The notes under the pieces were generated by a model that saw nothing but the letters and a program-made list of their open reading frames with translations, was not told where the DNA came from and did no database searches. Of a stretch of 64,000 nucleotides of DNA, positions 4,908 to 10,141 are shown piece after piece. This DNA comes from Pelagovum pacificum (GTDB lineage: Bacteria; Pseudomonadota; Alphaproteobacteria; Rhodobacterales; Rhodobacteraceae): positions 744,001 through 808,000 of the forward strand of contig NZ_CP065915.1 in the NCBI RefSeq assembly GCF_016134045.1, written 5' to 3'. The stretch's first letter is position 1. Each line of letters starts with the position of its first letter. A program made the translations under genes and the position numbers.

Positions 4908-6257
4908 ATGGGCAAGCTATTCGGAACCGACGGTGTTCGCGGCACGGCGAACGACTGGCCCATGACCGCAGAGATGGCGCTCAAGATCGGCGCGGCGGCG
5001 GGACGGTATTTCCGCAACGACGGCGACAACGGCCACCGGGTGGTGATCGGCAAGGACACGCGGCTGTCGGGCTACATGTTCGAGAACGCGCTGACCGCCG
5101 GTCTCACCTCGACGGGGATGAACGTCCTTCTGCTCGGCCCCGTGCCGACGCCGGCTGTCGGCCTGCTGACGACCTCCATGCGGGCGGACGTCGGGATCAT
5201 GATCTCGGCCAGCCACAACCCGCACCAGGACAACGGGATCAAGTTCTTCGGCCCCGACGGGTTCAAGCTGTCGGATCACGCCGAGGAGGAGATCGAGGCG
5301 ATCGTCGCGGCCGAGATCGCGCCCGCGCAGGCCGAGAACATCGGCCGGGCCAAGCGGATCGACGATGGCCGCTTCCGCTATGCCGAGCGTCTGAAGTCGA
5401 CCTTCCCCGCGGGGATGCGGCTCGACGGGCTGAAGGTCGTCATAGATTGCGCCAACGGGGCGGCCTACAAGGTCGCGCCCGAAGTGCTTTGGGAACTCGG
5501 CGCCGAGGTGATCCCGGTGGGCACGCACCCGAACGGTCTGAACATCAACCAGGACTGCGGCTCGACCTCGACCGCGACGGCGGCGGAGACGATCGTCGCG
5601 CATGGCGCGGACGTCGGCATCTGCCTCGACGGGGACGCCGACCGGGTGATGATCCTCGACGAGCGGGGGCAGGTGGCCGACGGCGACCAGCTGATGGCGC
5701 TGTTCGCGACCCGCTGGGCGGAGCAGCAGCGCCTGAAGGACGGCGTGCTTGTGGCGACGGTGATGTCGAACCTCGGGCTCGAGCGCTACCTCGGCGGACG
5801 CGGGCTGCGGCTCGAACGGACGAAGGTCGGCGACCGCTACGTGGTCGAGGCGATGCGCGCCGGGGGCTGGAACCTCGGCGGGGAGCAGTCGGGGCACATC
5901 GTGATGACCGACTTCGCGACGACCGGGGACGGGCTGCTCGCAGGCCTGCAGTACCTCGCCGCGATGGTCGAGACGGGGTGCCGCGCGTCGGAGCTCGCCG
6001 TGACCTTCGACCGGGTGCCGCAGCTGCTGCAGAACGTGCGCTACGCGGCGGGGCAGGACCCGCTGGCGGCGGCGTCGGTGAAGGCGGCAATCCGCGACGC
6101 GGAAGCGGAGATGGGCGCGACGGGGCGGCTGCTGATCCGCAAGTCGGGAACCGAGCCGCTGATCCGCGTCATGGCGGAGTGCGAGGACGAGGCGCTTCTT
6201 ACCAAGGTGGTCGAGGGGATCGTCGACGAGGTGAAAGCGGCGACCGTCGCGGCTTAG
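4908..6257 (+). CDS. glmM: Phosphoglucosamine mutase
   Basis: This 449-residue enzyme converts glucosamine-6-phosphate to glucosamine-1-phosphate for UDP-GlcNAc, and so feeds peptidoglycan and lipid A. It has the [11 protein letters not shown] start, the phosphoserine loop ISASHNP with Ser102 in the same position as in E. coli, the metal site DGDADR and the C-terminal phosphate-binding [16 protein letters not shown] at 4899 is in frame, but the ATG at 4908 gives the family N-terminus MGKLFGTDG, so I chose it. The gene ends 4 bp into the convergent transporter gene. Confidence 0.96.
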
Positions 6258-7153
6258 CGGCTCATCAGACGCAGGAGCGTGCGCCACTGGCTGACGGCGA
6301 GGCCGAACAGGATCAGGGCGAGCGCGTAGAAGAAGCGGCCTGGCAGGGCCTCGGACAGGACCAGCCAGCCGAACAGCATCGACCAGAGCGGGACCTGGTA
6401 GTTCACCAGCGTCATGAAGACCGGGCCCGCGCTGCGGATCACGGTGATGCGCAGCACGGCGGCGAGCGCGGTCGGAAACAGCCCCAGCACGATGATCGCG
6501 ATCCCCGAACGCGGGTCGGCCCATGTCGGCACGCCCTCGACCAGCAGCATCAGCGGCACCAGCACGCAGGCCCCGATGGTCAGCGTCAGCGCGGAGAGCG
6601 AGATCGGGTCCACCGGCGGGCAGCGCCGGGTGAGGGTCGAGGAGATCGCGTAGGCCAGCGTCGCGCCGAGGCAGGCGAGCAGGCCGAGCGGCTCTCCCCC
6701 CTCGGCGAGGTCGGTGAGGCCCGGCCCGATCAGCACCAGCGCCCCCGAAAAGCCGAGCACGACGCCCCAGAGCTTCGGCCAGGACAGGCGGTCGTCGGCG
6801 AAGAAGTGGGCGAGCGGCAGCAGGAACAGCGGCACGGCGGCGATGGTGAGGCCGGCGAAGGCAGAGGGGACATATTGCTGCCCCCAGCTGAGCAGGAAGA
6901 AGGGCAGCGCGGTCGACAGCAGCCCGATCGCGACGATATGCGGCCAGAGCCCCGGCGCGCGGCCGGGCAGGGGCCGCCTGAGGGCGCGCATCAGCAGCAG
7001 CGTCGCCGCCGCCCCGAGCGTGGTCCGCGCGGCAGCCACGGTGACCGGCCCGTAGCCGTCGAGCGCGAAGCGGACCACCATGAAGGTGCCGCCCCAGATC
7101 AGCCCCAGTCCGAAGATGGAGATCCAGTTCGCTGTCGTCGGCTTGTCGGGCAA
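6254..7153 (-). CDS. EamA-family (DMT) transporter
   Basis: This 299-residue integral membrane protein has about ten hydrophobic segments arranged as two EamA repeats; the first opens with [17 protein letters not shown] and the second with [16 protein letters not shown]. Family members export metabolites or amino acids by drug/metabolite-type exchange; the substrate cannot be read from the sequence. The 3' end overlaps the glmM stop by 4 bp. Its start lies at the left edge of the AT-rich accessory island. Confidence 0.88.
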
Positions 7154-7272
7154 GGGGAGGGCCTTCGGGTCGTTACCGGGTGGGTGGACGACGTGGGGCG
7201 GTGGGAGTCAAGGGGGGGAGTATTCTCTTCGTATTAATGGCTGCTTCATCGTCACGGCGGACCCAATTATAG

Positions 7273-7461
7273 TGGCGGCCTGCCGTCATCCATCGCTCAA
7301 CTTTTCCGGCTACGAGGTCCCGACTTGGATTGTACAAGCTTGGTGGTGTGCTCTACTTGCATCTCATTTGCTCCGCGGACGATGAGTTTATCGATGCGCC
7401 GAAAGTTCAACAAATCGTTGCGGACTCGAGAGGTTATATGCGAGTAAAGCTCCTTAGGTGA
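7273..7461 (+). pseudogene. Possible small ORF or gene tail at the island's left edge
   Basis: An open frame runs from the stop at 7270-7272 to a TGA at 7459-7461. It has no ATG; possible starts are TTG 7330 or GTG 7348. The last ~43 codons read like real protein (LGGVLYLHLICSADDEF, then QIVADSRGYMRVKLL), with mixed hydrophobic/acidic patterning and base composition like the genes that follow. It ends 20 bp before the next gene. It could be a short gene translated from TTG with GAGG at 7314-7317, or the 3' stub of a gene cut off when the island formed. I do not recognise the family. Confidence 0.3.
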
Positions 7462-7481
7462 GAGGTTGAAGGGGTGCAAAT

Positions 7482-7907
7482 TTGCTCGAGACCCAAGTGG
7501 ACTTCTCGTGTCCCAGAACACGAAAATCGACTACTTATGTCTATCAACATTCTACAAAACACCGAGATGGCCATCCTGGGAAATCACAGTGGACAATCTC
7601 TCTTGATGATGAAGCTCTGTCATTTCGATGTTCTTGTGAAGGAGGGTGGATTATCGGATCTAGTGGATGGGGGATTTACCTTGTTGAAGGAGTTATCTCT
7701 TATCTCGGATACGACCGGGAGGCTGGTGAGGTGTTCTTCGCTAAGTTTGATAACCACGCTCAAGACCTTTGGCATGGTTATCCGTGCGATTATAAGAAGA
7801 ATAACCAATGCCCTTCTCCAGATATCTTACAAGATTGGGTTCATCGCGGCTATCTTAGGCTCGCTCAGATGCGGAAGATCACTAAGGGGCAGAGATGCGT
7901 GATCTGA
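7482..7907 (+). CDS. Island gene A: unassigned 141-aa Cys/Trp-rich protein
   Basis: The start is TTG, with AAGGGG at 7469-7474 placed 7 bases before it; no ATG is available in this frame. The protein has seven cysteines, including SCP near residue 10, CSCEGG near 50, then C..Y...NQC near 102-109. Its C-terminal half reads DLWHGYPCDYKKN, DILQDWVHRGYLR, MRKITKGQRC, which has the amphipathic texture of a folded domain. I see no signal peptide or membrane segment. Codon use and GC content are far below the neighbours, which points to recent acquisition. Its last 13 bp overlap the next gene, so the two are surely co-translated. An overlapping 142-codon frame (7474-7902) is less protein-like. No family recognised. 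Confidence 0.65.
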   Translation: MLETQVDFSCPRTRKSTTYVYQHSTKHRDGHPGKSQWTISLDDEALSFRCSCEGGWIIGSSGWGIYLVEGVISYLGYDREAGEVFFAKFDNHAQDLWHGYPCDYKKNNQCPSPDILQDWVHRGYLRLAQMRKITKGQRCVI

Positions 7908-9091
7908 AAATAGCCGTTGAAGGACGTTGGTGGGATACGTTGCTTTATAAAGGGAAGCTCCACGCCCTTACTCCAGAAGGTGACTGGGAAATTTTCGACT
8001 GGGATGCCGTGATTGCTGAGCTTGCAGAGACGGTAGAGGAACGCGCTGGAGCCGCTATTCAATACGCATTTCGATCGAGTAATGCTATTAGCAACGGCAA
8101 TTTAAATCGTGACGACGTTATAGAGGGGTTCTCAAGAGTTCCAACGGAAAGTTTTGAGATCTCGTCTAAAAAGCTGCGAAGACACCTTCTTCTTAAGGGT
8201 AGTGCAGTAAGCTCATTCCCTAGCACATCAATGCTTATGCATTATGACAGAATGGTGATTTCATCTCTGGGTGGCGTCTACACTGAATACATAAACCCGA
8301 ACGACGTTTCAATTGGCTCATTAAAAAGGATAACATCTGTCGCTACGCGACAAATTTCCGCAGCATATGGGAGGATCGCATGTGCTTCAGGCGAAGCTGG
8401 CTTGCGCCAACTTGATCTACAGCTCGAAAGCGGATTTCATCCGAATGAAAGTGATGGGTATCAGCTGACTCAAGAAAGCTGTGACGCATGTGATTGGATG
8501 TATCAGAACGTATCGGCGATGTCGTATCATGGAAATAGCATTATCGCGAAGTTTGATAGAACAAATGAGTTCTTCCAGCCAGCAGGCGCCCAGCAATCAG
8601 GAGGTGAAATTGAAGAGGGCGGTGTTGAAAGGCTTGAGTTTTCGGGAATAGAAAGTTTGACCGAAGGTCTTAACGAGAATAGGCGCAATGGAAAGGTTAT
8701 AGCTTGGGGATCACACGATAAGATTTATCGAATTTCTGGAAGTATTTTGGAGTCTTTCAGGTTCATTTCGTCAGGGAAAAGATACGACTTAGGTGCGGTC
8801 GAGCTACCAAGTTCCGCAGGCGAAATTGTGTCGGTCAAAGCGGCACTATTTGGCGTCGTGGTTGAGTTTGACGCTAGTGTTGTGGTCATAAGAGGTGGTG
8901 GTGATTGTTTGATAATTGAGGGTGAGCCAATAAATACATCGACTTTCCCCCGGTCGAAAAGCTACGAAAATCAGCTTCACTTAATATTCGATGATCAGTT
9001 GTCAGTTGTTTCATTGAATTCGCCTATTGAAAGCGAGGACTTTTATCAGAAGAAGTTTGGTTCTAAGGCTCCCTCAGGGTGGTTTGGATGA
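7895..9091 (+). CDS. Island gene B: unassigned 398-aa protein
   Basis: The ATG at 7895 lies inside gene A with AAGGGGCAGAG just ahead, a good ribosome site. The N-terminus WWDTLLYKGKLHAL..DGDWEIFDWD and the C-terminal strands (KVIAWGSHDKIYRISG, GVVVEFDASVVVIRGG, LHLIFDDQLSVVSL) look beta-rich and could form a propeller or sandwich. The middle (about 90-230) is helical, with a CDACDW motif near 195. No signal peptide, membrane span or nuclease/ATPase motif stands out. The gene is AT-rich like gene A. The pairing of a small Cys-rich protein with a larger partner in a foreign island fits defence, toxin-immunity or modification pairs, but nothing in the sequence proves any of these. Confidence 0.65.
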   Translation: MRDLKIAVEGRWWDTLLYKGKLHALTPEGDWEIFDWDAVIAELAETVEERAGAAIQYAFRSSNAISNGNLNRDDVIEGFSRVPTESFEISSKKLRRHLLLKGSAVSSFPSTSMLMHYDRMVISSLGGVYTEYINPNDVSIGSLKRITSVATRQISAAYGRIACASGEAGLRQLDLQLESGFHPNESDGYQLTQESCDACDWMYQNVSAMSYHGNSIIAKFDRTNEFFQPAGAQQSGGEIEEGGVERLEFSGIESLTEGLNENRRNGKVIAWGSHDKIYRISGSILESFRFISSGKRYDLGAVELPSSAGEIVSVKAALFGVVVEFDASVVVIRGGGDCLIIEGEPINTSTFPRSKSYENQLHLIFDDQLSVVSLNSPIESEDFYQKKFGSKAPSGWFG

Positions 9092-9217
9092 TTAGCGTTG
9101 CAGACAAATTGAACTTTGTTTAGTGTGAGCCCCAGTACATTGCCTCGGACTCGCATTCAGTCAACCGGTAGCCATGCGACCATAAGCTAAGACAGCTAAG
9201 CGGTATTCCCCCCCCCC

Positions 9218-10141
9218 TCACGCCGTATCCTCCGCCACTGCCGCCTTGTACAACTCGCGGATGCGGGTGAGCACGGGGCCGCGGCCTCCGTCGGGGCCGA
9301 TGGGGCGGCCGTCGATCTCGGCGACCGGGGTCTGGGCGCCGAAGGTGCCGGTCAGGAAGGCCTCGTCGGCGCCGTAGGCCTCGACCAGGGAATAGTTCTT
9401 CTCGAACACGGGGATGTCGTTGGCGCGGCAGAGGTCGATGACCTTGCGGCGGGTGACTCCGTTCATGCAGTAGTCGCCGGTGCTGGTCCACACCTCGCCC
9501 TTCCTCACGATGAAGAAGTTGCAGGCGTTGGTCGTGTTCACGAAGCCATGCGGGTCGAGCATCAGCCCCTCGTCGGCGCCCGCCTGCTCGGCCTGCAGAC
9601 AGGCGATCACGCAGTTCAGCTTGGAGTGGCTGTTGTACTTGGCGTCCTGGCTCATCGGCAGGCCGCGCACCTGCGGCACGGTGGCGAGGCGGATGCCCTT
9701 CTTCTGGAGCGCGTCGACGGGCTTGGAATGCTCGAGGATCATCACGATCGTCGGCCCGGTGCGGCTGAGCGAGGGGTGCTGGAACGGCCGCACCTTCACG
9801 CCGCGCGTCACCATGAGGCGGCAGTGGACGTCGGTCTCCATCCCGTTGGCCTCGCGCGTCCGCTCGAGCTCGGCCACCAGCGTCTCGCGGTCTAGGCCGA
9901 TGTCGAGCGCGACCGCCTTGCAGGCCTCGTAGAGCCGGTCCATGTGATCGTCGAGAAACGCCCACTTGCCGTTGTAGAGGCGCAGCCCCTCCCACATGCC
10001 GTCGCCCAGCATGAAGCCTGAATCGTAGACCGAGACCTTCGCCTCGTCCCGGTGCTTCAGCTCCCCGTCGACGTAGATCAGGATGTCGCGGTTGCGGGGA
10101 TCGTCCTCGGCGGAGTGGGTGGTCGTTTCCTGGTCGTGCAT
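9218..10141 (-). CDS. PLP-dependent class IV aminotransferase
   Basis: This 307-residue fold-type IV aminotransferase belongs with the branched-chain, D-alanine and ADC lyase enzymes. Landmarks are SVYDSGFMLGDGMWEGLRLY near the N-terminus, HSKLN (the candidate PLP lysine, middle), DEGLMLDPHGFVNTTNACNFF and FLTGTFGAQTPVAEIDGR. The family transfers amino groups between branched-chain or D-amino acids and 2-oxoacids; which substrate is used here cannot be decided. The stop codon directly abuts a run of ten C (9208-9217) at the right edge of the island. Confidence 0.85.
   Translation of the reverse strand: MHDQETTTHSAEDDPRNRDILIYVDGELKHRDEAKVSVYDSGFMLGDGMWEGLRLYNGKWAFLDDHMDRLYEACKAVALDIGLDRETLVAELERTREANGMETDVHCRLMVTRGVKVRPFQHPSLSRTGPTIVMILEHSKPVDALQKKGIRLATVPQVRGLPMSQDAKYNSHSKLNCVIACLQAEQAGADEGLMLDPHGFVNTTNACNFFIVRKGEVWTSTGDYCMNGVTRRKVIDLCRANDIPVFEKNYSLVEAYGADEAFLTGTFGAQTPVAEIDGRPIGPDGGRGPVLTRIRELYKAAVAEDTA

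Follow-up and report, generated by a model that had tools for sequence, protein, structure and literature searches.

A low-GC island of Pelagovum pacificum carries a two-gene module, a WHGYP-motif protein and a predicted beta-propeller, with a putative defence or toxin-antitoxin function

We analysed a stretch of 64,000 nucleotides of Pelagovum pacificum (contig NZ_CP065915.1, positions 744,001 to 808,000; below, "the window" means this whole stretch) and in it an island of low guanine plus cytosine content (GC) holding two overlapping genes, here called A and B (Table 1). A preliminary description, made from the letters alone, had placed the two genes on the plus strand, with the overlap listed in Table 1, between an EamA transporter gene and a class IV aminotransferase gene, both on the minus strand; the open reading frames and the Pfam matches agree with it. 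The same description gave the size of the AT-rich block as about 1.8 kb: the contrast in composition is indeed strong, but the block extends over about 2 kb. The GC of the A-B pair is 0.457, while outside the island it has a mean of 0.663, a standard deviation of 0.020 and a lowest value of 0.614 (1174 overlapping segments of 1610 bp). At third codon positions, GC is 0.44 in gene A and 0.42 in gene B, while six genes of the flanks have 0.80-0.95. This contrast is far beyond chance. An open reading frame of 142 codons with a GTG start overlaps gene A; we dropped it as a real gene because the homologues match the frame of gene A. The promoter scan returned 0 sites, the terminator scan 1 site where 1.9 were expected, and the Rfam search no match.

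Table 1. Features of the island and of its flanks (positions in the window).
Feature	Position	Strand	Remarks
EamA gene, left flank	6254-7153	-	PF00892, E 1.3e-33
G7 run, left composition edge	7212-7218	+	
Low-GC imported block	7220-9207	.	100-bp GC profile; GC 0.464 vs 0.663 around
Putative Shine-Dalgarno AAGGGG of gene A	7469-7474	+	7 nucleotides 5' of the TTG; inferred from sequence reading
Gene A, 141 residues, TTG start	7482-7907	+	unnamed WHGYP family; putative RNase-like effector
Codon of His27	7560-7562	+	invariant in 121/121 ungapped rows
Codons W97-H98-G99-Y100-P101 (WHGYP motif)	7770-7784	+	H98 123/124, Y100 124/124
Putative Shine-Dalgarno AAGGGG of gene B	7884-7889	+	within gene A 3' end, 5 nucleotides 5' of the start; inferred from sequence
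A/B overlap, 13 nucleotides	7895-7907	+	13 nucleotides in 6/8 measured pairs
Gene B, 398 residues, ATG start	7895-9091	+	predicted seven-bladed beta-propeller; putative inhibitor and sensor
G10 run (C10 on +), right composition edge	9208-9217	-	
Class IV aminotransferase gene, right flank	9218-10141	-	PF01063, E 6e-41

Gene A stands beside gene B, in the same order, in all of the nine distinct loci which we read: the window, Monaibacterium (L002), Sinorhizobium americanum (L003), a Chlorobiota metagenome-assembled genome (L004), two types of IMG/VR contigs (L005 and L006), Agrobacterium pusense (L010), the Ruminococcus albus plasmid pRUMAL01 (L011) and a Sphingomonas plasmid (L023). Repeated copies were counted once (the pair of L009 is identical to that of L003, and L007 and L008 are the same as L006 there). 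The count rests on these nine loci, the 124 proteins of the gene A alignment (A8) being mostly without readable neighbours. The hosts span Alphaproteobacteria, a Chlorobiota genome and Ruminococcus, and the pair is plasmid-borne in four of the nine loci. The two genes overlap in every one of the eight pairs measured (L006 lies outside this set), by 13 nucleotides in six of them and by 4 in two. Across eight pairs, the distances between the A proteins and those between the B proteins are correlated with r = 0.95, a value equalled in 4 of 10,000 permutations and to which the shared descent of the hosts contributes. The B protein of the Sphingomonas plasmid is recognisable over its last 74 columns only (84%), and its A protein is clear (98%). 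A and B form a module, and the expectation that their homologues recur as a pair is borne out. It had also been claimed that the overlap shows co-translation; the overlap does not prove it, but together with the AAGGGG before the start of gene B it suggests that the two genes are translationally coupled.

The island is horizontally acquired, as had been supposed. Among 61 genomes, the profile of gene B finds only that of the window, and the gene is absent from the four congeners and 56 other relatives; in the family, 2 of 394 genomes contain gene B, and the second carries it at the same place as the Monaibacterium locus. The profiles of gene A find the genome of the window only among 398 genomes of the phylum, likewise among 357 of the class, and, in the phylum of L004, the genome of L004 only among 296 (all these samples overlap in part). 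The block folP-glmM-eamA is retained in two of the four congeners, where the aminotransferase gene is not nearby; the island therefore lies at a synteny break. An empty insertion site, looked for in the congeners, is not shown there. The phage genomes contain no match to P0015 (a relative of B) or to P0032 (a relative of A), and four scans of viral contigs, made with queries from other branches, gave no relative. A tblastn match in Paracoccus aminovorans (H6, E 0.09) was rejected as due to chance; it overlaps a 640-residue open reading frame in another frame, and its own frame has no open reading frame of 80 residues. The preliminary description had named two findings that would speak against it, homologues serving as housekeeping genes and presence of the genes at this locus, with native base composition, in all close relatives. 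As far as this was examined, no relative is annotated or matched as housekeeping, and close relatives lack the two genes.

A separate observation concerns the edges of the island. Runs of at least seven G or C occur three times in the whole 64 kb, and two of them lie at the two edges, in opposite orientation. When three runs were placed at random, both edges were reached in 3 of 2,000,000 placements, the test being post hoc. No such run is found in L002-L011, and the Sphingomonas plasmid copy has a run of 39 G about 150 nucleotides upstream of gene A (L023 5729-5767).

Gene A has homologues 56-70% identical to it, and the family counts at least 139 proteins (139 profile matches at E <= 1). In A8, from which P0138 was excluded as its row is incomplete, H27, W37, E44 and the WHGYP motif are near-invariant, and R28 and E44 are conserved across the 124 rows alongside H27, H98 and Y100. 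The structure model of gene A has a mean predicted local distance difference test score (pLDDT) of 93.8. Gene B is confidently predicted to be a beta-propeller along its whole length, with seven four-stranded blades; the first impression of a protein which is WD-like at its front only has to be given up. That neither protein belongs to a recognised family still stands: Pfam, PADLOC, PHROGs and NCBIfam yield only chance-level matches at E <= 1, the best being NsnC for gene A (E 0.1) and deiodinase for gene B (E 0.061), and Pfam taken alone yields none for gene A at this threshold. None of the PDB sequences searched with the A8 and A5 profiles matched, and the viral structure library has no match to gene A at E <= 0.001.

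The fold of gene A has weak matches only, and the best two are chains of toxin complexes of contact-dependent inhibition (CDI). The top VIA structure match, with a low Z, is CdiA-CT of Yersinia kristensenii, of the bacterial ribonuclease (RNase) A superfamily (5E3E). H27, H98 and Y100 of gene A would correspond to the reported catalytic residues His175, Thr276 and Tyr278 of this toxin, in a register taken from the alignment ends only, and the counterpart of the H-G-Y-P of gene A is, in four PF18431 sequences, a terminal T-x-[YF]-P. The Yersinia toxin, however, acts as a delivered domain and is paired with the immunity protein CdiI, whereas gene A is free-standing with a propeller as partner and has an extra C-terminal helical part. 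The sequence profiles do not make gene A a member of PF18431 and give the RNase A-like link no support. The 124 members of A8 matched 44 families, and the 25 of these that are listed do not include PF18431; hhalign gives 0.2% for the gene A family against four of the six PF18431 loci (L065, with an internal stop, and L066, under the cut-off, were left out). By its weak fold similarity and its conserved residues, gene A is a putative RNase-like protein.

Ten proteins of three loci (L005, L009 and L010) were scanned with PADLOC, and defence-named neighbours are present in all three. In Agrobacterium (L010), an HNH nuclease gene precedes the pair, and then come, on the opposite strand, Vsr, DruE2 (2340 bits) and DruG2; in Sinorhizobium (L009), a DrmB fragment follows the pair and a DrmA-like helicase lies beyond IS66 copies; in L005, a HerA ATPase lies about 6 kb downstream. 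We take the names DruE2 and DruG2 to denote Druantia, and DrmA and DrmB to denote DISARM. The idea that the homologues lie near defence genes is thus upheld in these three of the nine loci. In L011 and L023 the annotation names replication and transposase genes and no defence gene. Two further genes of these regions were noted: in the Agrobacterium region, a gene of the caspase family (PADLOC caspase, E 3e-5) with an unassigned gene on either side (L010 2197-6249), and, immediately upstream of the Sinorhizobium americanum pair, a gene whose 532-residue protein has no Pfam match (L009 5743-7341).

Judging from the sequences, the A-B pair probably has a role in conflict, as a putative defence or toxin-antitoxin system. 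We propose tentatively, giving it a little less than an even chance, that it is an imported and probably translationally coupled conflict module in which an RNase-type effector, A, is held and triggered by the propeller B. The product of gene A would be a small effector and, in the likeliest case, an RNase A-like/BECR-type RNase, whose active site would probably be made of H27, H98 and Y100 plus R28 or K88. The propeller would bind A and keep it inactive; on sensing a phage or plasmid product, B would release or activate A, which would cut RNA, and the growth of the cell would stop before the invader spreads. The RNase activity, its catalysis, the A-B complex, the inhibition by B and the trigger are what we infer. 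The known phage-defence protein of E. coli which combines an Mrr nuclease domain with a seven-bladed propeller makes such a division of labour between nuclease and propeller plausible (PMC9519451, as described in the part consulted). It is a single protein with an Mrr-family domain, whereas the module of the window is split over two genes and its small domain is of another kind, and the two systems are likened by description only. A survey of 2012, in the part consulted, had met with no propeller among the immunity proteins of toxins (PMC3482391).

It is also conceivable, if unlikely, that the pair is a plasmid-type addiction (toxin-antitoxin) module, with A as the toxin and B as the antitoxin, and that it is kept by selection because it stabilises mobile DNA and not because it stops phages. 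The plasmid-borne loci and the rare, patchy spread would fit with this, as would the order of the genes, the small one first and overlapped by its larger partner. Two adjacent, overlapping genes are indeed what is asked of a type II toxin-antitoxin system, and the partner B is unusually large. Many type II antitoxins carry a DNA-binding domain, however, and none is recognised by Pfam in B, which with its 398 residues is large for an antitoxin; the defence-named genes near the three scanned loci also speak against mere addiction.

The PADLOC model PDLC03898 of NsnC, a protein which we take to belong to the Menshen system, matches 11 of the 124 members of A8 at E <= 1 (best 7e-4), gene A itself being linked to NsnC only via the proteins of four loci, L040-L043. 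A search of 200 genomes with this model found one locus in each of 8. In L040-L043, a small gene with a WHG[YF]P motif is followed, with anything from a 4-nucleotide overlap to a 3-nucleotide gap, by a larger gene which runs off the locus after no fewer than 468 codons. As in the window, the small gene directly precedes a larger partner, but this partner is not a propeller: in the two cases scanned (L041 and L043) it has an IrrE/Peptidase_M78 domain (E 1.1e-8 and 9e-11) and resembles the capP and RmrA models, RmrA being presumably a part of RosmerTA. Two of the small proteins, those of L042 and L043, match positions 177-259 of PDLC03898 (E 3e-9 and 6e-10), and the L040-L043 set matches A8 with 95% over 47 columns. 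This arrangement may be a further toxin-antitoxin or defence pair that has not been described so far. In L045 the larger gene is similar, but a stop interrupts the match of the small gene, as happens in L039 too; in L046 the match is short. Finally, L044 is of the Menshen type: NsnB (E 4e-89; an AAA ATPase) stands beside NsnC (E 3e-11). Its NsnC protein, which reads YHAYE and lacks WHGYP, with Y-x5-H and H-x-Y kept as judged by eye, alone matches neither A8 nor A10, and the chain from gene A to Menshen is therefore indirect. The NsnC models have about 250-270 positions, against the 141 residues of gene A, and unlike NsnC in L044 the pair of the window has no Nsn neighbour, being flanked by the EamA and aminotransferase genes, while neither A nor B matches the NsnA or NsnB models. 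Menshen is also named in the part consulted of PMC10952713.

A quite improbable alternative is that A is an NsnC-like, non-enzymatic adaptor which binds nucleic acids or a partner, with B as scaffold or effector. It would account for the A relatives that match NsnC in its C-terminal part (in L044, the neighbour of NsnC is an AAA ATPase matching NsnB), and it gains from the weakness of the fold link between A and RNases; but the two near-invariant histidines with Y100, E44 and R28 resemble an active site, and B has no enzyme family in Pfam, PADLOC, PHROGs or NCBIfam. Just as improbable is the reading that A and B were imported as an ordinary pair, metabolic or surface-related, and play no part in conflict. 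The housekeeping-type flanks in the window and a PEPCK gene upstream of the pair in L004 would suit it; against it stand an accessory-gene pattern (1/61, 2/394, 1/398, 1/357 and 1/296 genomes), the defence-named neighbours in L005, L009 and L010 and the fact that no metabolic family was found for either protein.

Among the matches listed (titles and starts of abstracts) of the literature on the motif, on propeller or WD40 antitoxins, on RNase A-like/BECR toxins and on NsnC/Menshen, we did not recognise a description of the pair. Returning to the RNase-type effector held by a propeller, we consider it possible, but rather doubtful, that this is a new defence or toxin-antitoxin system of at least three phyla, in which the propeller would both inhibit an RNase A-like effector and sense infection for it, and in which the WHGYP cassette would swap partners (the propeller here, an IrrE-type peptidase elsewhere) and would also be built into the NsnC of Menshen. 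Neither A nor B has a convincing match in four profile libraries, yet the family of gene A, of at least 139 proteins, shares conserved residues that may form an active site, and copies of the pair lie near genes of the Druantia and DISARM types. Should the indirect connection with NsnC be real, a role would be suggested for NsnC too.
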